This document shows positions 4,897 to 63,863 of a stretch of DNA of 64,000 bases, in pieces. The DNA comes from Pyrinomonadaceae bacterium (GTDB lineage: Bacteria > Acidobacteriota > Blastocatellia > Pyrinomonadales > Pyrinomonadaceae), in assembly GCA_014380365.1 (NCBI GenBank), contig JACMJZ010000003.1, forward strand, positions 1 to 64,000, read 5' to 3'. A model generated the notes under the pieces. It searched no databases, was not told the origin of the DNA, and was given only the letters and a program-made list of their open reading frames with translations. Within the stretch, counting starts at the first letter, position 1. Each line of letters starts with the position of its first letter. Both the position numbers and the translations under genes were made by a program.

Positions 4897-4917
4897 ACTT
4901 GAACTGGGCAGGAGATT

Positions 4918-5032
4918 TGCAGAACCGCGAGCCGTAGCGAGCGGATGCAGGCAGTCAACTCCGCAGCCGAGAGATTGTTCTTCATTTCAACGCCACTCCT
5001 GGCACCCGCTCGCTACCGCTCGCGGTTCTGCA
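4918..5032. repeat. Long inverted repeat, family H
   Basis: TGCAGAACCGCGAGCCGTAG at about 4918-4937, continuing into CGAGCGG, pairs with the segment ending at 5032 (CCGCTCGCTACCGCTCGCGG then TTCTGCA), giving arms of about 26 bases around an 80-base loop. A diverged relative occurs at about 37790-37830 (GGTCGCTACTGCTCCCGGTT). It lies between convergent genes. Confidence 0.75.
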
Positions 5033-5098
5033 AAATGCAACTTTCCCTGTCCGCGTGATCGCCCCGACGGCGGGACGACGCCCTCCCTTACGGTTGGG

Positions 5099-24414: not shown

Positions 24415-25701
24415 ATGCTTGATCTCAACTACGTGCGGGAGAATCTTGAGCAGGTGCGCGCTGCGCTCGCTACGCGCGGCGTGGTGCCTGAGGCCCTGGA
24501 CAGCTTTGCCGAAGCCGACGTCGAACGCCGTCGAATCATTGCCGAGTCGGACCAACTCAACGCCGAGCGCAACGCTTCGAGCCGCGAAATCGGCGCGCTA
24601 ATGAAAGATGGAAAGCGGGACGAAGCGGAAGCGCGCCGCAAAGAAGTTAACGAACTAAAAGAACGCATCGCCGAGTTAGACAGTCAGCGCGACGGGGCTG
24701 AAACGCGCCTCCGCGACCTCATCTCGGGTCTTCCCAACCTGCCGCACGAAAGCGTGCCCGTGGGCAAGGATGAGTCGGACAACGTCGAAGTCCGTCGGTG
24801 GGGTACGAAGCCGGAGTTTGATTTCCAGCCGCAGGACCATGTTGATCTCGGCAACGCTCTCGGCATTCTCGACCTCGAGCGTGCCAGCAAAATTGCCGCG
24901 GCGCGTTTCGCCATACTCAACGGCGCCGGCGCGCGTTTGAGTCGTGCACTGGTTAACTTCATGCTCGACCTGCACACGCGTGAGCATAGTTACCGGGAAA
25001 CGCTGCCGCCGTTTATCGTGAACAAGGATTCATTGTTTGGCACCGCACAGCTGCCCAAGTTTGAGCAGGACCTCTTCAAACTGGAAGACGAGCGCGGCCT
25101 CTACCTGATTCCCACCGCCGAGGTCCCGGTCACCAACTATCATCGTGAAGAAATACTCGACGCCGCGCAGCTACCGCTCCGATGGGCCGCGTACACGCCC
25201 TGCTTCCGTTCCGAGGCTGGCAGCTACGGACGCGACACGCGCGGCGTGATTCGGCAACACCAGTTTGAAAAGGTCGAGCTGGTGAAGTATTCGCTGCCGG
25301 AAAATTCTTACGACGAGCTCGAATCGCTCACCAGCGACGCAGAGAGGGTCTTGCAAAAATTAGGACTTCACCACCGCACAGTCGCCCTCTGCACTGGTGA
25401 CATTGGAAATGGCGCCGCCAAGACTTACGACCTAGAGGTGTGGTTGCCGTCGCAGAACGCGTTTCGCGAAATCTCTTCTTGCTCAAACTATGAAGCGTAC
25501 CAAGCGCGTCGCGCGCAGATTCGCTTTCGCCGCTCTGGCGGCGCGAAGCCGGAGTTTGTGCACACATTGAATGGTTCAGGACTGGCGATTGGCAGGACGT
25601 GGCTGGCAATACTGGAAAACTTCCAACAGGTGGATGGCTCGATTGTTATTCCGGAAGCCTTGCGCCCCTACATGGGTAGGCTGGAGAAGATTAGCAGATA
25701 A
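24415..25701 (+). CDS. serS: Seryl-tRNA synthetase
   Basis: The 428-residue class II synthetase charges tRNA-Ser. It starts [12 protein letters not shown], has the long N-terminal antiparallel coiled coil that grips the tRNA long variable arm (residues about 25-105; [19 protein letters not shown]), motif 2 ([20 protein letters not shown], about 262-281) and motif 3 ([16 protein letters not shown], about 390-405). Its length is normal. AAGGA lies 9 bases before the ATG. The stop codon lies at the edge of an inverted repeat shared with the convergent sppA gene. Confidence 0.97.
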
Positions 25702-25834
25702 CTATCCGCAGATTCCGCCGATTACGCAGAAAAGGATCCTCAGCAAAGGGGGATCCTTTTGGTCTTGGAGGCTTGAACCTTTGTCGCTTGCCTATTTTAA
25801 ATCTGTGTAATCGGCGTAATCTGCGGATAGTTAT
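25699..25834. repeat. Inverted repeat spanning the serS/sppA convergent ends, family C
   Basis: The left arm ATAACTATCCGCAGATTCCG (25699 on, continuing CGATTACGCAGA) matches the reverse complement of the right arm (25801-25834, ending ATCTGCGGATAGTTAT) over about 33 bases with few mismatches. Each arm contains the stop codon of the adjacent gene (serS TAA at 25699-25701, sppA TAA at 25833-25831). Related elements lie at 54079-54181 and 60761-60882. Confidence 0.85.
25730..25760. terminator. Bidirectional intrinsic terminator between serS and sppA
   Basis: AAAAGGATCC (25730-25739) pairs perfectly with GGATCCTTTT (25751-25760) around an 11-base loop, giving a U-run on the plus strand and, by symmetry, on the minus strand. 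It lies between the two convergent stop codons. Confidence 0.7.
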
Positions 25835-27630
25835 TTGACCCTCAGGTCAAACGGCATCAGTAGCATCGACTCACCATTCTTCATGCGATCCAGCAGCGCC
25901 GCATACCGCAACGCTCGGCGAGCGTCCTCCGGTAGCGCGGCCAATACCGCTTGCTGCTGCTTCGCTTGAGTTCCCCCGCTCCGCGTCTCATCACCGGCAG
26001 CCATCAATTCCTGGAGGAACGTGCGAGGCACCGGCAGAATCACGCGACGCACGCCTTTGTCCTTCGGAATATTAGCCAGCTCCTTAGCCAACTCCACCGC
26101 GCGGTCTAACCCACCAAACTCATCTACGAGCCCACGCTCCTTGCCTTGCGAACCGGTCCACACGCGGCCTTGGGCAATTGAGTCGATATAAGCGGCATCC
26201 TTGTTCCGACCCTTCGCTACCTTGGGGACGAAGTCTTCGTAGTAAGTCGTCTTGATCCACTCTTCAAACTTCGCCCGTTCGTCCGGCGAAAACTTTTCCG
26301 TCTCACGAAACATTCCGGCGTTCTTCCCGCGCAGCACATACTCGTTTGAGATTCCCAGCCAGTCGTAGAAACCCCGCAACACAGGCTTGCCGGCCACCAC
26401 GCCGATGGAGCCGGTGATGGTGGATGGTTGAGCCACAATCTTGCTGGCGCCGGCTGCGATGTAGTAACCACCGGAAGCGGCCACGTCGCCCATGGAAATT
26501 ACGACCGGCTTTTTCTCCTTCGCCGACACGACGGCGTGCCAGATGATGTCAGAGGCGAGACCTGAACCACCCGGACTGTCTACGCGGATCACGATTGCCT
26601 TGATTGTCTTGTCATCGCGAGCATCATTCAATGCTTTCGCCAGCGTGTCAGAACCAATGGACTGGCTCCCGCTCGGACTGTTGTCTGATTGTCCCGAGCC
26701 AATGTCTCCGGTCGCGTAGATGACCGCAATCTTCTCACCCTTGTTGAGCCCCAATGACTCGGGTTCGATTTCGCTGTAGGTTGAACCTCTCACAATCTTG
26801 AGCGGGTCCGTTTCTTTGTAACCGAGCTTCGTCTTCAACTCTTTTTCAAGTTCGTCGCGATAAGCCACATTGTCAATTAGCCCCGCCTCTTTGGCTTTCG
26901 CCGCGCTGTAGGGTGAGTTGTCGATCAGCGCGTGCACCTCTTCGACCGACTTGCCGCGAGCTTTCGCAATTGCTTCAACGTAGCGGTTGAAGAGATCGTC
27001 GAGCAGCGAGTTGATATATTCCCGATGCGCGTCGGTCATCTGCTTTTGGGTAAACATGTCGCCCGCGCTCTTGTATTTTCCGATCTGATACATGTCGGGA
27101 TAGATACCGAGCTTATCGAGCGAGCCGCGGAAGAACATCACGTCAGCGGCGAGACCATTGATGAAGAGCTCGCCGGGAGGGGCCACATAGATTTTGTCGC
27201 AGGCGCTGGCGATGTAGTACTCCTTGTTCATTCCGAGTTCCAGATAGGCGTACACAGGTTTTCCGGAACTGCGGAAGTCAGCAATGGCGTCGCGAATTTC
27301 TTCCGCCTTGCCCCAGCCCACTGCGGACATGTTGACGTCCAGCACGATCATCTTGATGCGCTCGTCTACCTTCGCCTTCTTAAATTGGAGTATGAGAGTT
27401 GAGAGCGACTGATCGGGCCCGCCGAGAAATTTCCGAAAGGGATCATTTGGGACGTAGTCGGGTAAGGTCCCGGCTACACGCAGCGAGAGTACGCTGTTGC
27501 TGGCAACTGACGGCGCGGAACCGCGGACGGCTGCAACCAGTATCGCCAGCCCAATGAGCACAACTAGAATCAAGGCCACCACAATGCTTGTGATAATCAG
27601 GAGCGTCTTTCGTGAACGTGACATTGCCAT
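25831..27630 (-). CDS. sppA: Signal peptide peptidase SppA, 67K type
   Basis: The 599-residue protein is a double-domain SppA, which cleaves leftover signal peptides in the periplasm while anchored by one N-terminal transmembrane helix (LLIITSIVVALILVVLIGLA). The general-base lysine lies in GKYKSAGDMF in the N-terminal domain and the nucleophile serine in DVAASGGYYIAAGAS in the C-terminal domain, the arrangement known for the long form. The oxyanion region DSPGGSG is intact. The stop codon lies in the inverted repeat shared with serS. The large set of secreted proteins in this window gives a plausible need for it. Confidence 0.93.
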   Translation of the reverse strand: MAMSRSRKTLLIITSIVVALILVVLIGLAILVAAVRGSAPSVASNSVLSLRVAGTLPDYVPNDPFRKFLGGPDQSLSTLILQFKKAKVDERIKMIVLDVNMSAVGWGKAEEIRDAIADFRSSGKPVYAYLELGMNKEYYIASACDKIYVAPPGELFINGLAADVMFFRGSLDKLGIYPDMYQIGKYKSAGDMFTQKQMTDAHREYINSLLDDLFNRYVEAIAKARGKSVEEVHALIDNSPYSAAKAKEAGLIDNVAYRDELEKELKTKLGYKETDPLKIVRGSTYSEIEPESLGLNKGEKIAVIYATGDIGSGQSDNSPSGSQSIGSDTLAKALNDARDDKTIKAIVIRVDSPGGSGLASDIIWHAVVSAKEKKPVVISMGDVAASGGYYIAAGASKIVAQPSTITGSIGVVAGKPVLRGFYDWLGISNEYVLRGKNAGMFRETEKFSPDERAKFEEWIKTTYYEDFVPKVAKGRNKDAAYIDSIAQGRVWTGSQGKERGLVDEFGGLDRAVELAKELANIPKDKGVRRVILPVPRTFLQELMAAGDETRSGGTQAKQQQAVLAALPEDARRALRYAALLDRMKNGESMLLMPFDLRVK

Positions 27631-29701: not shown

Positions 29702-29880
29702 CAGTTTCGAGTTCCGAGTTTCAAGTTTCGAGTTGTGTCCACGATACACTAGAATACTGTAGAAGCGTCTATACGTCAGGTAACCCGGCCCGATCTGGTA
29801 AAAGCTTCGCCGGTGGGCGCTCGAACGCTAAAGACAGCAACCTTAACTCGAAACTCGGAACCCGAAACTTGAAACCCTGA
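29702..29880. repeat. Inverted repeat in the mnmA/norQ divergent gap, family D
   Basis: TTTCGAGTTCCGAGTTTCAA (about 29704-29723), continuing GTTTCGAGTT, pairs with AACTCGAAACTCGGAACCCG (about 29846-29865), continuing AAACTTGAAA. The arms abut both divergent genes, so the shared promoter region lies in the loop. Confidence 0.75.
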
Positions 29881-37878: not shown

Positions 37879-38556
37879 ATGCCTAAGCTGAATAACTCGC
37901 AACGAAGGAATGTCTGGCGGCATCCTAGTGTCGTTGTGAAAAGACTATCCCTCGCAGTATTGCTTCTGTTCACCTTCCTCGTTTTAGGCAGCGCGACCGG
38001 CATCACCGCGGCGGCTGAAAGAATCGCGGACAAACTGGCCGGGAAACTCGTCTTCTACGTCCATGTCGCACAGCTTTACGCGAAGGAGCCTGACCAGAAG
38101 ATCGCGATGCCGGTCCAGGACGTCTCGAAGAGCCAGATAGCAAACACCTGGCACGCGGCGCGCGGAACGGACCGGCTTCACGAAGGCCAGGACATTTTTG
38201 CGCCCCAGGGCACGCCTGTACTCTCAGCGACTGAGGGCTACATAGCGAGCATTGGTGAGAATCGTCTCGGCGGCCAGACGGTCTCAGTTGTCGGCGCGGG
38301 CGGTCGAGTCTATTACTACGCTCACCTTGATTCCTACGCACCACACATCACCGAAGGCGACTGGGTCACGACGCAAACAGTACTTGGTTACGTCGGCACC
38401 ACCGGTAATGCGGCCGGCACTCCCCCTCATCTCCACTTCGGCGTTTACGCACCCGGCGGAGCGATGAACCCTCTCCCGCTGCTCAACGATCGACCTCGCC
38501 CCGAGCTGACGGGGTCAGGCAAAGGAAAAACCGCTCGCGGAAAAAAGAACCGGTGA
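37879..38556 (+). CDS. Exported M23 family (LytM-type) metallopeptidase
   Basis: The 225-residue protein has a basic N terminus and one hydrophobic helix (LSLAVLLLFTFLVLGSATG), so it is exported or membrane-anchored. The catalytic M23 domain is complete: H101 and D105 in HEGQDIFA, H149 in YYYAHLD, and H184/H186 in PHLHFG. It should cut peptidoglycan cross-links or other glycine-rich peptides in the periplasm. The C terminus is short and very basic (KGKTARGKKNR). A palindromic element starts 25 bases after the stop. Confidence 0.92.
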   Translation: MPKLNNSQRRNVWRHPSVVVKRLSLAVLLLFTFLVLGSATGITAAAERIADKLAGKLVFYVHVAQLYAKEPDQKIAMPVQDVSKSQIANTWHAARGTDRLHEGQDIFAPQGTPVLSATEGYIASIGENRLGGQTVSVVGAGGRVYYYAHLDSYAPHITEGDWVTTQTVLGYVGTTGNAAGTPPHLHFGVYAPGGAMNPLPLLNDRPRPELTGSGKGKTARGKKNR

Positions 38557-38581
38557 AGGTCCCCCGTGCGAATCCCGCCGG

Positions 38582-38847
38582 GCCTTGCACAATACCTATT
38601 GTGACAGTCCGCGCAGCGGACGACCGACAGTAGCCCAGCGATTAATCGCTGGGATCGGGGCGCACATTACTAGCAGTCCCTGAAACGGACGGCTGATTGG
38701 GAAGGAGCGTACTCACTGTAGAAGGCTCTCTGGCTCAGCCGTCCGTTTCCCGGACTAGCTCGACAAATCGATCCCTTCCCAGCAGTAAACTGCTGGGCTA
38801 TTGTCAGTTGTCCGCTACGCGGACTGGGCCGAAGTCTTGTGCAAAGC
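38582..38847. repeat. Composite four-level palindromic element, MITE-like
   Basis: This 266-base element is symmetric around about 38715. Terminal arms GCCTTGCACAATAC (38582-38595) and GTCTTGTGCAAAGC (38834-38847) match at 12 of 14 positions. Inside are CAGTCCGCGCAGCGGAC / GTCCGCTACGCGGACTG (38605, 38810), AGCCCAGCGATTAATCGCTG / CCCAGCAGTAAACTGCTGGG (38632, 38778) and AACGGACGGCTGA / TCAGCCGTCCGTTT (38684, 38736). It fills most of the 391-base gap between two plus-strand genes. It has no coding capacity. The remaining ~100 bases before the next gene hold no recognisable site. Confidence 0.8.
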
Positions 38848-38947
38848 GGTGCGCGCACGACGGCCACTGCTCACTACCCGCTGGCGTTTCTGTTGTATTT
38901 TCGTTGCTCGATCCCCAAAGAACACCCAGCGGGCGTAAGATGAGGAC

Positions 38948-39532
38948 ATGAAATATCGAATCGTAGTCGGCGGCGTCTTAGCGATGATGGTTTTGGCTGG
39001 CGGTAGCAGCGCCCAGGGACAAAGCAGTGCGCAGGAGTTGGCAGCGAGTCTCCGTGGTCAACTTATTGAACTGGAGACAAAGCAGTCTGCGCTACAGACG
39101 CGTCTGCAGGAGCTGGATGAGAAGCTGAAGCCTGAAAACATCGAACAGAGTCTGGCCGGAGTGGGCAGCACTCGTCCGGAAGATCTGCGCGAGCAAAAAC
39201 GTCGTCAACTTGAGATCGAACGCGGGGGTGTGCAGAGGCAACTGGATCTGCTGGCAGCGAGCCGCACGCGTCTGGAGACGTCAATCGCGCGAGCTGATGC
39301 AGAGGCCTATCGACAAAGCGCTGCGCCTCAACCTGTCACTCCTCAAGGTGCTCCCGCGCAACCCAGCACGGGCGTCGCGGTCATCGAAACCAAGACAACT
39401 CCGGCAACCAGTCGTCGCGTTCGACGAAAGCGAACGAGGCGCGTTCGACGCACCCACCACGTTCAGACGAGTGTTGTTGCTCCGATAGCGCACCCGGGGA
39501 TCAGTACCCTTACCGCACTGGGAAAAAAGTGA
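38948..39532 (+). CDS. Secreted coiled-coil protein with basic C terminus, unknown
   Basis: I do not recognise this 194-residue protein. It has a signal peptide (VVGGVLAMMVLAGGSSAQG), a heptad-like coiled coil (residues about 28-62 and 80-120; LRGQLIELETKQSALQTRLQ), a Pro/Ala/Gln linker and a strongly basic stretch (SRRVRRKRTRRVRRTHH, about 155-171). That charge pattern could bind nucleic acid, heparin-like polymers or anionic wall components, but this is inference. The gene is bracketed by two unrelated composite palindromic elements, 100 bases upstream and 28 bases downstream. Confidence 0.75.
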   Translation: MKYRIVVGGVLAMMVLAGGSSAQGQSSAQELAASLRGQLIELETKQSALQTRLQELDEKLKPENIEQSLAGVGSTRPEDLREQKRRQLEIERGGVQRQLDLLAASRTRLETSIARADAEAYRQSAAPQPVTPQGAPAQPSTGVAVIETKTTPATSRRVRRKRTRRVRRTHHVQTSVVAPIAHPGISTLTALGKK

Positions 39533-39560: not shown

Positions 39561-39711
39561 GCGGCTTGCCGCCGCACAGTGCGGAAAGCCTATGGCTTTC
39601 CGGCCAGCCACACTCTCCAATCTTTCCTGAGGCTCAGCCTCAGGAAAAGGTTCTTAAATTACCCGGCCCCGGTAAGGCAAGCCTTACCGCACTGTGCGGC
39701 GGCAGAGCCGC
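39561..39711. repeat. Composite palindromic element
   Basis: Outer arms GCTTGCCGCCGCACAGTGCG (within 39561-39584) and CCGCACTGTGCGGCGGCAGA (39687 on) are reverse complements apart from one inserted base. Between them lie AAAGCCTATGGCTTT, TTTCCTGAGGCTCAGCCTCA-GGAAA (39623-39647) and GGTAAGGCAAGCCTTACC (39671-39688). It is nested like the 38582 element but has a different sequence. Confidence 0.8.
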
Positions 39712-44534: not shown

Positions 44535-46275
<1,741 letters not shown>

Positions 46276-55549: not shown

Positions 55550-55735
55550 CTAAGGCTTCTTCCGCGAATAGACGTAGAACAACGTCCCAATAATAATCAG
55601 CACCAGGCTTTCCATGAAAATGAAGAAGCGCGGAACGAAGGTCCCATCTTCCAGGTGAGCGTCTGAATATGCGACAAAGGTTCCGAGCGCCAGCCCCGCC
55701 CCCAGCCAGATTAATTGTCTTTTCGCATCCCACAT
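55550..55735 (-). CDS. Small two-helix membrane protein
   Basis: The 61-residue protein has two transmembrane segments (LIWLGAGLALGTFVAYSDA and FFIFMESLVLIIIGTLFYVYS) separated by a short acidic loop and a positively charged C terminus (SRKKP). It has no Shine-Dalgarno, but coding character and helix positions support it as real. No function can be assigned. It is followed by a family-B repeat and then the PRC-barrel/MgtE_N/CBS gene in the same direction. Confidence 0.65.
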   Translation of the reverse strand: MWDAKRQLIWLGAGLALGTFVAYSDAHLEDGTFVPRFFIFMESLVLIIIGTLFYVYSRKKP

Positions 55736-55736
55736 A

Positions 55737-55879
55737 GAAAGTAAACAGCAAACAGCAATCAGTTAACAGCAATCGGCGATAGCAAAGCGGCGGTTGGTGG
55801 CTGTTACCAACCAGCGATCACCAAGAACGAACTGCCCGGCTGTTTGCAGTTTGCTGATTGCTGTTTGCTGTTTGCTTTC
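55737..55879. repeat. AACAGCAAACAGC-type inverted repeat, family F
   Basis: GAAAGTAAACAGCAAACAGC (55737 on) pairs with GCTGTTTGCTGTTTGCTTTC (55860-55879). Further AACAGCAATC units lie inside. It occupies the gap between the small membrane protein and the DUF4350-like gene. Confidence 0.75.
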
Positions 55880-55883
55880 TTTG

Positions 55884-61200: not shown

Positions 61201-61235
61201 GTGTGCTCCTCCGCCTTTCTTATTCTTTCCAGGAA

Positions 61236-61258
61236 CGCAAACTAACAGTTTGCGTTAC
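61236..61258. repeat. Family-B palindrome carrying the hutH stop codon
   Basis: CGCAAACTAACAGTTTGCG plus TTAC on the plus strand. The minus-strand TAA of hutH (61257-61255) is inside the GTAACGC end of the repeat. Confidence 0.85.
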
Positions 61259-62757
61259 AAATCCTCAAACTCACCTTCGCGAATCGCCTGCGCAATTCGC
61301 TGAATATCGGCAGACATCGAGCGATCGCCGCTCAGCTCCGAGACATGCGACCGAACCACGTCATAAGCGCGTTTGACCCCGTTGCCCGGAAGCAAAGGCG
61401 CACGGAACCCGAGTCCCTGTGCTGCGGTGATTAACTCAATAGCCGTTGCCAGTTCAGCAATCTCGACTATGGAACGCAGCTTCGAGGCGGAAGTCATGCC
61501 CATCGACACGTGGTCTTCTTTGCCGCCATCCGTTGGGACATTATCGACACTCGCCGGGTGGGCTAAGATCTTCGCCTCGCTCAACAGTGCGACCGCTGTC
61601 ACCTGCAGCATCATGAACCCGGACGACGTTCCGGCCTCAGTTGTTAAGAATGGAGGCAGGTCTTCGTTGGCATCAGGATTCACCAGACGATCTATGCGCC
61701 GCTCAGTAATGCTCATCAGATCTGTGATGGCGATGGCGGCGTAATCGAAAGCGAGCGCGAGCGGAGCGCCGTGGAAGTTGCCGCCAGAGAGAACGTCACC
61801 AGCTTCGAAGAAGACCAGTGGATTGTCCGTAGCGCTTCCGGTTTCCGTTTCCACGATTCCGCGCGCGTGCGCGAGCGCATCACGCACCGCTCCGTGCACT
61901 TGCGGCATGCAACGCAAACTGTATGCGTCCTGGATGCGGGGATCGTTTTCCAGATGGGACTTGCGAATCTCGCTGCCGTCTAGCAACTCGCGCAGGTGCC
62001 GAGCCACCTCAACTTGCCCCGGATGAGGACGGGCCGCATGAATGCGTTCATCAAAGGCGACCGGTGTTCCTCGTAGCGCTTCGAGCGACATCGCTCCCGC
62101 AACGTCTGCGAGCTGGGTCAGGCGCTGGGCGCGATGGAGCGCCAGCCCGCCAACCGCACCCATCGCCTGCGTACCATTCAGTAACGCCAGGCCTTCCTTT
62201 GCTTCCAGTTTGAGAGACGCAATCCCGGCTCGTTCAAGCGCCGCGGCGCTGGGTAGACGTTCTCCCCGGTAGAATGCTTCGCCCTCACCAATCGCGGCCA
62301 GCGCGAGATGGGCCAACGGCGCCAAATCCCCGCTCGCTCCCACGGAGCCCTTCTCCGGTATGACGGGCGTAACTCCGCTCTCGAGCATTGCCAGCAACGT
62401 CTCTACGACTATAGGCCGTGCGCCGCTGAATCCACCGGCCAACACATTTGCCCGCAGCAACAGCATTGCCCGAGACTCGCCTTCGGAGAGCGGGTTTCCT
62501 AAGCCGCACGAGTGACTGCGAACCAGGTTCAACTGCAATTCGCTTAGCTTATCGGGCTCGATCCGAACATCGGAGAGTTTGCCAAAACCGGTGTTGATTC
62601 CGTAAACAGCACGGTTATCAGCGACGATTTGCTCTACGACACGCCGCGACGCTTCAATCCGCACGCGTGCTTCATCGGCGAGAGCCACCTGCTCCCCGCC
62701 GTTTGCAACGGCTGCTATTTGATCAAGCGTTAATCGTTGTCCGCGGAGTTGGAGCAT
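61255..62757 (-). CDS. hutH: Histidine ammonia-lyase
   Basis: The 500-residue enzyme deaminates histidine to urocanate. The MIO prosthetic-group tripeptide A141-S142-G143 is in GSVGASGDLAPLAHLAL, with NTGFGKLSD near residue 55 and the later catalytic segments (NATDNPLVF-like SATDNPLVF, NGTQAM) intact. Its length is normal for the family. The stop codon is part of a family-B repeat, so the last residues (EGEFEDL) abut the insertion point. Confidence 0.97.
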   Translation of the reverse strand: MLQLRGQRLTLDQIAAVANGGEQVALADEARVRIEASRRVVEQIVADNRAVYGINTGFGKLSDVRIEPDKLSELQLNLVRSHSCGLGNPLSEGESRAMLLLRANVLAGGFSGARPIVVETLLAMLESGVTPVIPEKGSVGASGDLAPLAHLALAAIGEGEAFYRGERLPSAAALERAGIASLKLEAKEGLALLNGTQAMGAVGGLALHRAQRLTQLADVAGAMSLEALRGTPVAFDERIHAARPHPGQVEVARHLRELLDGSEIRKSHLENDPRIQDAYSLRCMPQVHGAVRDALAHARGIVETETGSATDNPLVFFEAGDVLSGGNFHGAPLALAFDYAAIAITDLMSITERRIDRLVNPDANEDLPPFLTTEAGTSSGFMMLQVTAVALLSEAKILAHPASVDNVPTDGGKEDHVSMGMTSASKLRSIVEIAELATAIELITAAQGLGFRAPLLPGNGVKRAYDVVRSHVSELSGDRSMSADIQRIAQAIREGEFEDL

Positions 62758-62870
62758 AGAAAACAGAGATCAGAGAACAGAGGTCAGCGATCAGAAGTCA
62801 GAGGCCATCCGCCAGACGATTACTGACTTCTGATCGCTGACGTCTGACTTCTGACTTCTGACTTCTGCTC
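62758..62870. repeat. TCTGACTTCTGAC-type inverted repeat with tandem units, family G
   Basis: CAGAGATCAGAGAACAGAGG, then TCAGCGATCAGAAGTCAGAG on the left side, pairs with CTGACTTCTGATCGCTGACG and tandem TGACTTC heptamers (TCTGACTTCTGACTTCTGAC) on the right. It fills the gap between the DUF2270 and hutH genes exactly. Confidence 0.8.
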
Positions 62871-63863
62871 TTAGGCCTTTACCGTGCGGTCCCTATCTGG
62901 CGTTTCTGAAATATCGATTCGGGCGGAGTTTCGTTCCGGCGTTTCGCTGATGTCGATCTTCCGGAATTCTCCAGTTGCAGCGCCACTGCGTACGCGTTGG
63001 CGGGCGCGTTTGGCACGTTGCGTAGTTCGGCCTCCGCCCGTTGCCACTCGCGTCCAACTGGTCATCCGCTTCAAAGGTCGCAGTGAAAATTCATGCTGCG
63101 GCAAAACCTCGCCCGTCGCTTCGCGCAGACGCACCGTGCCGATGGCAAAGATTGCAATCGCCGCATTGAAGAGTACGCCGCAAACAAAAACTGCCCACCC
63201 CGGCACAACGCCAACTGTGGCGCGATCTATAAAGGCGTTGAAGTCACGCGCCGGCAGCGGATGCAGATAGACTTTGAGGTTCCAGCTCAACGCCAGCAAC
63301 GCAAAGATCCAAAGATAGTTGCGGCGTAGTCGCCTGCCAATCGCTTCCCATTCACTAATAGTGAAATGTGGCGTGATCAAATCCGCCGCCAAATGTTCGG
63401 CCCATCCCTCGTCGGGCGGAATGCTCTCAGGAGCCAGCATCTGCGCAAAGTATCCTGTTTCAATTACGCGTACGCGACTCGACCAGATTTCGTAGTAACG
63501 ATACCGCCGCGCTTCCATGATCAAAAAAATAGCTACGAGAATTGAGTTGATGGGAATCACAAAGTGGGCATTGGTGGCCGAACCAAAAACGAATGAAAGG
63601 GTCGCGCCCGCTGTTAGCACGGCCCAGTTTGTAGTTGTATCCAGCCGGTTGCGCCAGGTGTTAGACCGCTGCACCTCCCCGCGATAGAAATGAATCATCG
63701 CGGTATTAAACTCACCGGGCCCCATTCGACGCATCTGCGCTGTAGGCGTGTGCGCCACTCTCTCGGAAGCGGCGCTCTCCGGCGGCACCGCCGGCCGCAA
63801 GCGAACTGGCGCCCGTTCTCCCGAAAGCGGACCCGTTCCTTTTTGCTGCATTTCGGTGGTCAT
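62871..63863 (-). CDS. DUF2270 integral membrane protein
   Basis: The 330-residue protein matches DUF2270: MIHFYRGEVQRSNTWRNRLD then about four transmembrane helices (NWAVLTAGATLSFVFGSA, FVIPINSILVAIFLIMEARR, WIFALLALSWNLKVYLH, WAVFVCGVLFNAAIAIFAIG). N-terminal ~45 and C-terminal ~80 residues are cytosolic and Arg/Pro-rich. The tail ends in a duplicated motif (IDISETPERNSAR, then IDISETPDRDR). Function unknown. It is transcribed toward hutH and could be the first gene of that run. Confidence 0.85.
   Translation of the reverse strand: MTTEMQQKGTGPLSGERAPVRLRPAVPPESAASERVAHTPTAQMRRMGPGEFNTAMIHFYRGEVQRSNTWRNRLDTTTNWAVLTAGATLSFVFGSATNAHFVIPINSILVAIFLIMEARRYRYYEIWSSRVRVIETGYFAQMLAPESIPPDEGWAEHLAADLITPHFTISEWEAIGRRLRRNYLWIFALLALSWNLKVYLHPLPARDFNAFIDRATVGVVPGWAVFVCGVLFNAAIAIFAIGTVRLREATGEVLPQHEFSLRPLKRMTSWTRVATGGGRTTQRAKRARQRVRSGAATGEFRKIDISETPERNSARIDISETPDRDRTVKA

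Follow-up and report, generated by a model that had tools for sequence, protein, structure and literature searches.

Extent and structure of the palindrome

What kind of element is the long palindrome found near position 38,715 of the window (the whole stretch of 64,000 nucleotides of Pyrinomonadaceae DNA that was analysed), and how did its layers come to be nested? A first-pass annotation made from the letters alone had described a four-level palindrome with terminal arms matching at 12 of 14 positions around that centre, had likened it to a MITE or REPIN-like composite and had proposed that it grew by successive insertion at the centre of earlier palindromes. A repeat search and folding confirmed the nesting, which is genuine. 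Inside the terminal arms (38582-38595/38834-38847), which match at 12 of 14 positions, lie a pair of 50-nt arms (38605-38654/38777-38826, 82%) and a pair of 22-nt arms (38675-38696/38735-38756, 91%), all about a centre near 38715. The predicted fold reaches -151.2 kcal/mol on the + strand (z = -11.5) and -155.1 kcal/mol on the - strand (z = -13.9) relative to 200 dinucleotide shuffles. Alignment to the terminal repeat common to other copies made the element one or two bases longer than first described, giving a shell and a core that together span 268 bp. The element is intergenic, with an M23 peptidase gene (37879-38556) upstream and a small ORF at 38948 downstream, both on the same strand; in relatives, the matches to these two genes lie on different contigs. 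The features referred to below are as follows.

38581-38848, no strand: whole element, shell plus core (repeat search, folds, alignment of ends)
38581-38597, + strand: left terminal inverted repeat of the shell, GGCCTTGCACAATACCT; 13/17 to the consensus GGCTTTGCACAAAAAGT
38606-38825, no strand: core, read as a RAYT-type composite that lacks the transposase gene and is built from two half-units in inverted order
38606-38653, - strand: match to RF01687 (Acido-Lenti-1), 40.0 bits (gathering 37), E 4.1e-7
38607-38621, + strand: left outer hairpin H1, GTCCGC-GCA-GCGGAC
38630-38633, + strand: GTAG, the tetranucleotide immediately 5' to the REP hairpin
38634-38653, + strand: left REP hairpin, CCCAGCGATTAATCGCTGGG; its stem covaries across copies
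38675-38696, + strand: left inner H1 hairpin, AGTCCCTGAAACGGACGGCTGA; adjoins the gene start in RAYT-bearing copies
38697-38734, no strand: centre, 38 nt; position of the transposase gene in RAYT-bearing copies
38735-38756, - strand: right inner H1 hairpin
38778-38797, - strand: right REP hairpin, CCCAGCAGTAAACTGCTGGG
38778-38825, + strand: match to RF01687, 32.6 bits (below gathering 37), E 4.2e-5
38798-38801, - strand: CTAT, complementary to the tetranucleotide in its ATAG form
38810-38824, - strand: right outer hairpin H1, GTCCGCTACGCGGAC
38832-38848, - strand: right terminal inverted repeat of the shell, CGCTTTGCACAAGACTT; 13/17 to GGCTTTGCACAAAAAGT

Most of the layers are small hairpins: H1 (GTCCGC..GCGGAC), REP (CCCAGC..GCTGGG) and H1 once more, the outer and inner H1 layers being the same hairpin type at a spacing of 69 nt. 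With most layers being hairpins, the DNA has two ways of folding: into a single long stem, or into short hairpins set in a row.

The core and the RAYT genes of related genomes

Other copies of the core were found both at home and in relatives. The element's own genome carries four further near-complete ones at non-homologous sites (C1:33196-33402, C1:155095-155285, C3:2969-3176 and C12:1492-1681) and, where contig C18 ends, a fragment. Matches occur in 18 of 59 related genomes; congeners within the Pyrinomonadaceae hold dozens of copies, full-length ones being present at about a dozen sites each in genomes G004 and G012. A search of a plasmid collection with the element, and with the shell plus a half-unit, returned no match. 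Core copies measure 188-225 bp and consist of two inverted half-units, 1-39 nt apart, each with the order hairpin H1, RTAG, REP hairpin, inner H1. The profile of the half-unit reads AGTCCGC-GTA-GCGGACGACTGACA-RTAG-CCCAGCNN..NNGCTGGG-AT, followed by a spacer of variable length after REP and then by AGTCCGTGAAGCGGACGGCTGA. The RTAG tetranucleotide is present in 73 of the 88 aligned half-units. Two pairs of the REP stem vary freely yet remain paired, with Watson-Crick combinations in 82/87 and 83/87 cases as compared to shuffle means of 39 and 29, and few G.T pairs are observed. Covariation of this type suggests that the target of selection is the DNA, or both strands, and not a single RNA.

In some relatives the space between the half-units is occupied by a gene for a Y1/HUH transposase (RAYT) of 149-150 amino acids (G002, C514:774-1226 and C14:about 376-828; G004, C22). 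On one side, the start codon follows the end of the inner H1 hairpin within about 11-25 nt; on the other, 0-2 nt separate the hairpin from the stop codon. The protein matches PF01797 and can be aligned with IS608 TnpA (PDB), bringing its HUH (DDHVHALL) and Y1 (YINNQKEHH) motifs into register. Against NCBIfam models, it scores 56.4 bits with the IS200 equivalog (a second protein, 54.3; cutoff 55) and 21-24 bits with REP_Tyr_transpos (cutoff 80). Around more distant RAYT genes (L121 and L123, about 50% identity) the hairpin-REP-hairpin layout is kept while the sequences diverge. As the half-units lie directly at both ends of the gene, the core corresponds to a RAYT element minus its gene; we read it as the two ends of a Y1/HUH, IS200/IS605-like element from which the gene is missing. 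H1, REP and inner H1 keep one order and one spacing on each side of the RAYT genes; successive insertion is not how the layers within the core arose.

No close cognate RAYT was found in the element's own genome, which is 95% complete. The best relative there shows 45% identity and has other repeats around it, so the cognate gene is probably absent from this genome. Comparison by eye of the window copy's centre with the RAYT leader revealed no convincing remnant.

Some neighbouring arrangements were recorded along the way. One core copy (L096, G004:C12, 674-2083) is interrupted by an element with an ORF of 320 aa, assigned to the IS110-type transposases by sequence appearance only. At the end of contig C20 of G000 (L043), a RAYT of another family is followed by tandem direct copies of a AACGCTGAAAGCGTT/CCCAGGGTT unit. 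A REP family with the sequence GTAACGCAAACTGTTAGTTTGCG is found in the window at 46182-46215 and 61230-61263; two of its units, inverted relative to each other, flank the core copy at 155 kb of C1 (G000:C1:155040-155330), and the 9-bp duplication of locus L085 overlaps a unit of this family.

A target-duplicating shell around the core

Many copies share the sequence GGCTTTGCACAAAAAGTA outside the H1 hairpins. This motif occurs above the control level in the genus, and paired copies of it enclose a number of different REP cores (GCGCCAAAGGCGC, GCCGCCGCACAGTGCGG, AACGCTGAAAGCGTT, CCCGCGGAGTGGGCG and others). The possibility that the outer arms of the window element are mere local flank was rejected once this repeat was found in sister copies as well. 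In 23 shell elements, the two flanks were 0.57 identical, as opposed to 0.26 when cross-paired, at k = 9 only (0/20000 permutations); a second set of 25 elements, obtained from a scan of genome contigs and nearly all lying in other genomes, gave 0.72 versus 0.28, again at 9 bp only. Thus, target-site duplications exist at the sister copies, in keeping with a MITE, but not at the window copy, the flanks of which agree at 3/9 positions and show no duplication. Its terminal repeats, at 13/17 each, are far above chance at that distance. With its ends decayed, its target duplication lost and no close cognate RAYT, the window copy looks old.

HUH/Y1 transposition is not known to make target duplications. 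Since the shell does leave them, it appears to represent a second, DDE-like system. In its terminal repeats and 9-bp duplication the shell resembles ISAba12-type elements, which we take to be members of the IS5 family, and we refer to it as IS5-like in this sense. Like MITEAba12 and the ISAba12-type elements (PMC6382973), it combines a similar terminal repeat (GGCTTTGTTGCACAAA there, GGCTTTGCACAAAAAGT here) with 9-bp duplications and a gene-less size of about 100 bp; it differs in a repeat that is three bases shorter, in the REP-type core inside and in that no autonomous partner was found. The search for an autonomous element with shell ends, and hence for a transposase with matching terminal repeats, was negative at PF01609 matches in four genomes and in 80 loci carrying the repeat; the PF13737 profile had no match anywhere, controls included. 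One candidate, a 1374-bp repeat pair in G000 (L227), was rejected, as its flanks agree at 2/9 positions and thus show no target duplication, and no transposase was recognised by eye among its ORFs.

The shell ranges well beyond the family of the window element. Bare shell MITEs of 98-99 bp were found in Abditibacteriaceae, Rubrobacter and Acidobacteria, and one of 109 bp in a planctomycete. Contigs of metagenome-assembled Aenigmatarchaeota (DPANN archaea; L264, L301, L302) carry GGCTTTGCACAAAAAGT elements of 126-187 bp with hairpin cores and target duplications at 7-9 of 9 bp. Copies belonging to the family of the window element have far shorter shells, of about 22-26 bp per side, than the shells of about 99 bp found elsewhere.

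Independence and combination of shell and core

The layers also occur separately. Cores devoid of shell (L022, L024, L025), shells with other cores (L228-L233, L242-L244) and shells with H1 only (L422, L413) were all identified. Of the last kind are two elements of 71-72 bp in G006, made of the shell and one H1 hairpin, one of them with a 7/9 duplication; deletion could have produced them, or they could represent a simpler form. The shell was found at 19/25 core half-ends in G012, 9/26 in G004, 6/11 in G006 and 3/10 in G000, and at both ends of the window copy; at RAYT-bearing copies (loci L080 and L143) it was found at 0/5 half-ends, for a chance rate of 1%. Exchange involves a second shell too. 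The core of L228, which lies in the first shell, is 73% identical (E 5e-28) to the core found in a different shell at L238 in G004. The latter belongs to a 240-bp element (L238, 2096-2335) with ends GAGCCCGTGCCAAAACTC/GAGGCTGTGTCAAAACTC, a TTA duplication and its own REP core, and sits inside the REP hairpin of a copy of the window family. On these comparisons, the shell and the core are mobile units in their own right, able to occur apart and combined more than once. Central insertion, as originally proposed for all layers, would therefore fit the core relative to the shell, though not the layers within the core.

When the REP core was cut out of eight hybrids, residual shells of 98-109 bp were left, five of them of 98-101 bp, the size of the bare shells. 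Given that the cut points were chosen by the analyst and that the interiors of bare and hybrid shells are unrelated in sequence, this match in size is only suggestive. An empty shell matching a hybrid was sought for five hybrids and none was found.

A second nested composite palindrome lies about 720 bp downstream of the first in the window (39561-39711, GCCGCCGCACAGTGCGG / CTGAGGCTCAGCCTCAG) and has a core of another REP family. This core recurs in G012 (L229) within a GGCTTTGCACAA shell with a 7/9 duplication.

A simpler reading would take the element for an ordinary IS-derived MITE, a single DDE transposon over its whole length, with the RAYT genes of the relatives merely inserted into it. 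The shell-core unit does carry its 9-bp duplications as a whole and has been amplified as a unit in G012 and G004. This reading does not account for the unrelated cores found in the same shell, nor for the preservation of the H1-REP-H1 order around divergent RAYTs; shell-less cores, RAYT-bearing copies among them, and core-less shells largely refute it, leaving it little likelihood. One might also suppose that RAYT alone moved a REPIN/REPtron in which the outermost layer is simply part of the REP family, as in a TIRtron. TIRtrons and REP dimers inside palindromes are indeed known (PMC3733652), and the outer repeats lie at a near-constant distance from H1 in most G012 copies. However, exact 9-bp duplications at the outer repeats are unexpected from HUH/Y1 transposition, the same repeats bound the bare MITEs of about 99 bp in other phyla, and the outer repeats are absent at the copies that bear a RAYT gene; we judge this alternative very improbable. 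The interpretation favoured here remains that of a RAYT-type core inside a MITE-type shell, and the initial description as MITE or REPIN-like composite thus holds in both senses.

The half-unit and the Acido-Lenti-1 motif

The left half of the core matches RF01687 from end to end (model positions 1-46 of 46) at 40.0 bits, and the right half matches it over the whole length below the gathering score. Alignment indicates that the conserved 'CUA' following the first stem of the model is the complement of the TAG in the tetranucleotide. The Acido-Lenti-1 motif was given as a probable RNA by Weinberg et al. 2010 (PMC2864571), and a 2026 paper still describes it as functionally obscure and guesses a regulatory role (PMC13298647). 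RF01687 matches were obtained in 46 of 59 related genomes, 37 of them with matches over the cut-off, and in 0/14 controls; at least 85 copies are present in one genome. They accompany 11 of 20 RAYT loci (E <= 0.05), where 23 of 24 matches are on the - strand to the left of the gene and on the + strand to its right; the remaining match comes from the distal end of a gene-less copy nearby. Among 20 other high-scoring loci, chosen regardless of RAYT (one adjoins a RAYT), 12 show the same -/+ pair within about 230 bp. A scan of the interval 38400-39000 for promoter-like or terminator-like sites was empty.

That the element is a functional structured RNA, an Acido-Lenti-1 sRNA in two inverted copies, is the least probable of the readings considered, for the strength of the RF01687 match, the Rfam type (sRNA gene) and the strong fold are set against the copy number, the inverted pairs with fixed orientation around transposase genes, the scarcity of G.T pairs despite covariation and the empty scan. 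The H1+REP half-unit covers the whole covariance model, and what Rfam classifies as a probable sRNA of obscure function appears here as a mobile-element end, in inverted pairs and beside RAYT genes. Multicopy, paired and oriented as it is, the motif is better read as a DNA transposon end: at least in Blastocatellia, Acido-Lenti-1 would be the H1+REP end of RAYT elements and not an independent sRNA gene. No description of it as a RAYT end was found in the open-access literature searched. Acido-Lenti-1 sRNA annotations therefore merit re-examination, the motif being a transposon end in these genomes, and an orphan 'structured RNA' family may have found its answer.

Proposed mode of spread

Taken together, these data make it very likely that the window element is a non-autonomous chimeric mobile element, in which a gene-less, RAYT-type core resides in an IS5-like MITE shell. 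Its ends, its repeats, the duplications at sister copies, the independence of shell and core and the central RAYT gene of relatives can all be read from the DNA itself. Weighing against this reading are the negative searches for an autonomous partner and for an empty shell, the unrelated interiors of bare and hybrid shells, the short shell in the family of the window element and the flanks of the window copy, which show no duplication. As single-stranded DNA, each core end would fold into H1 and RTAG-REP hairpins, which RAYT would bind and nick, as its homology suggests and by analogy with TnpAREP, for which single-strand binding and cleavage are on record in E. coli, S. maltophilia and Marinomonas (PMC8266576). 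The core could thereby be copied or moved leaving no target duplications. A presumed DDE-type transposase would act on the GGCTTTGCACAAAAAGT ends in double-stranded DNA, excising and inserting shell plus core as a whole and leaving the 9-bp duplications behind. In the simplest scenario, a shell MITE was already in place when a REP core inserted inside it, and the resulting hybrid then spread as one unit. The wider proposition is that such chimeras form a class present in bacteria and DPANN archaea, that an IS5-like MITE shell of about 99 bp, found across phyla, is invaded time and again by RAYT-type REP cores, which gain from it a second, double-strand cut-and-paste mode of spread, and that Acido-Lenti-1 is the DNA end of the cores and not an RNA; we consider the arguments for and against it to be evenly poised.

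Relation to known systems

REPINs, REPtrons, TIRtrons and IS-type MITEs are already known, and REP dimers in palindromes were noted in 2013 (PMC3733652). The core shares with REPINs and REPtrons (PMC3116915, PMC8266576) two inverted REP hairpins preceded on their 5' side by a GTAG-type tetranucleotide, a dispersed, intergenic and gene-less occurrence, and arms that also flank a Y1/HUH transposase gene. It departs from them in having three hairpins per arm (H1, REP, H1), a tetranucleotide that is mostly ATAG, a transposase gene at the centre of the palindrome, an outer shell in the window copy, and a transposase that scores nearer to IS200/IS605 than to the NCBIfam REP-associated equivalog. In the proposal of Bertels and Rainey 2011 (PMC3116915), REPINs go back to repeats that flanked an autonomous element in the past. 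On such an origin from the ends of an element, one would expect to see a transposase gene at the centre of a REP palindrome, and the RAYT-centred copies match the proposal.

TIRtrons (Di Nocera et al. 2013, PMC3733652) likewise associate tyrosine transposases with long flanking inverted repeats, Acidobacteria included, and the same study reports REP dimers within longer palindromes in A. variabilis, T. roseum and H. neapolitanus. That study did not demonstrate that the outer palindromes are transposon ends that leave target duplications, and those of A. variabilis and H. neapolitanus were seen only together with REPs, whereas the outer layer described here has exact 9-bp duplications, surrounds several unrelated cores and occurs bare as well. 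Within the open-access literature searched, no target-duplicating MITE shell common to several REP cores was encountered. Two unrelated transposition systems appear to be joined here in a single miniature element, and families have traded shells and cores; actual genomes are thereby at hand in which to ask how small palindromic repeats originate and spread.

Other repeats in the window

Further long imperfect inverted repeats are present in the window at 4916-5034, 25695-25837, 29703-29875, 55733-55883 and 62758-62871 and probably belong to other short-repeat families. Between 14600 and 16562, imperfect repeats about 51 and 26 nt long are scattered over a coding-looking stretch that, by appearance only, specifies an FG-GAP-like repeat protein.
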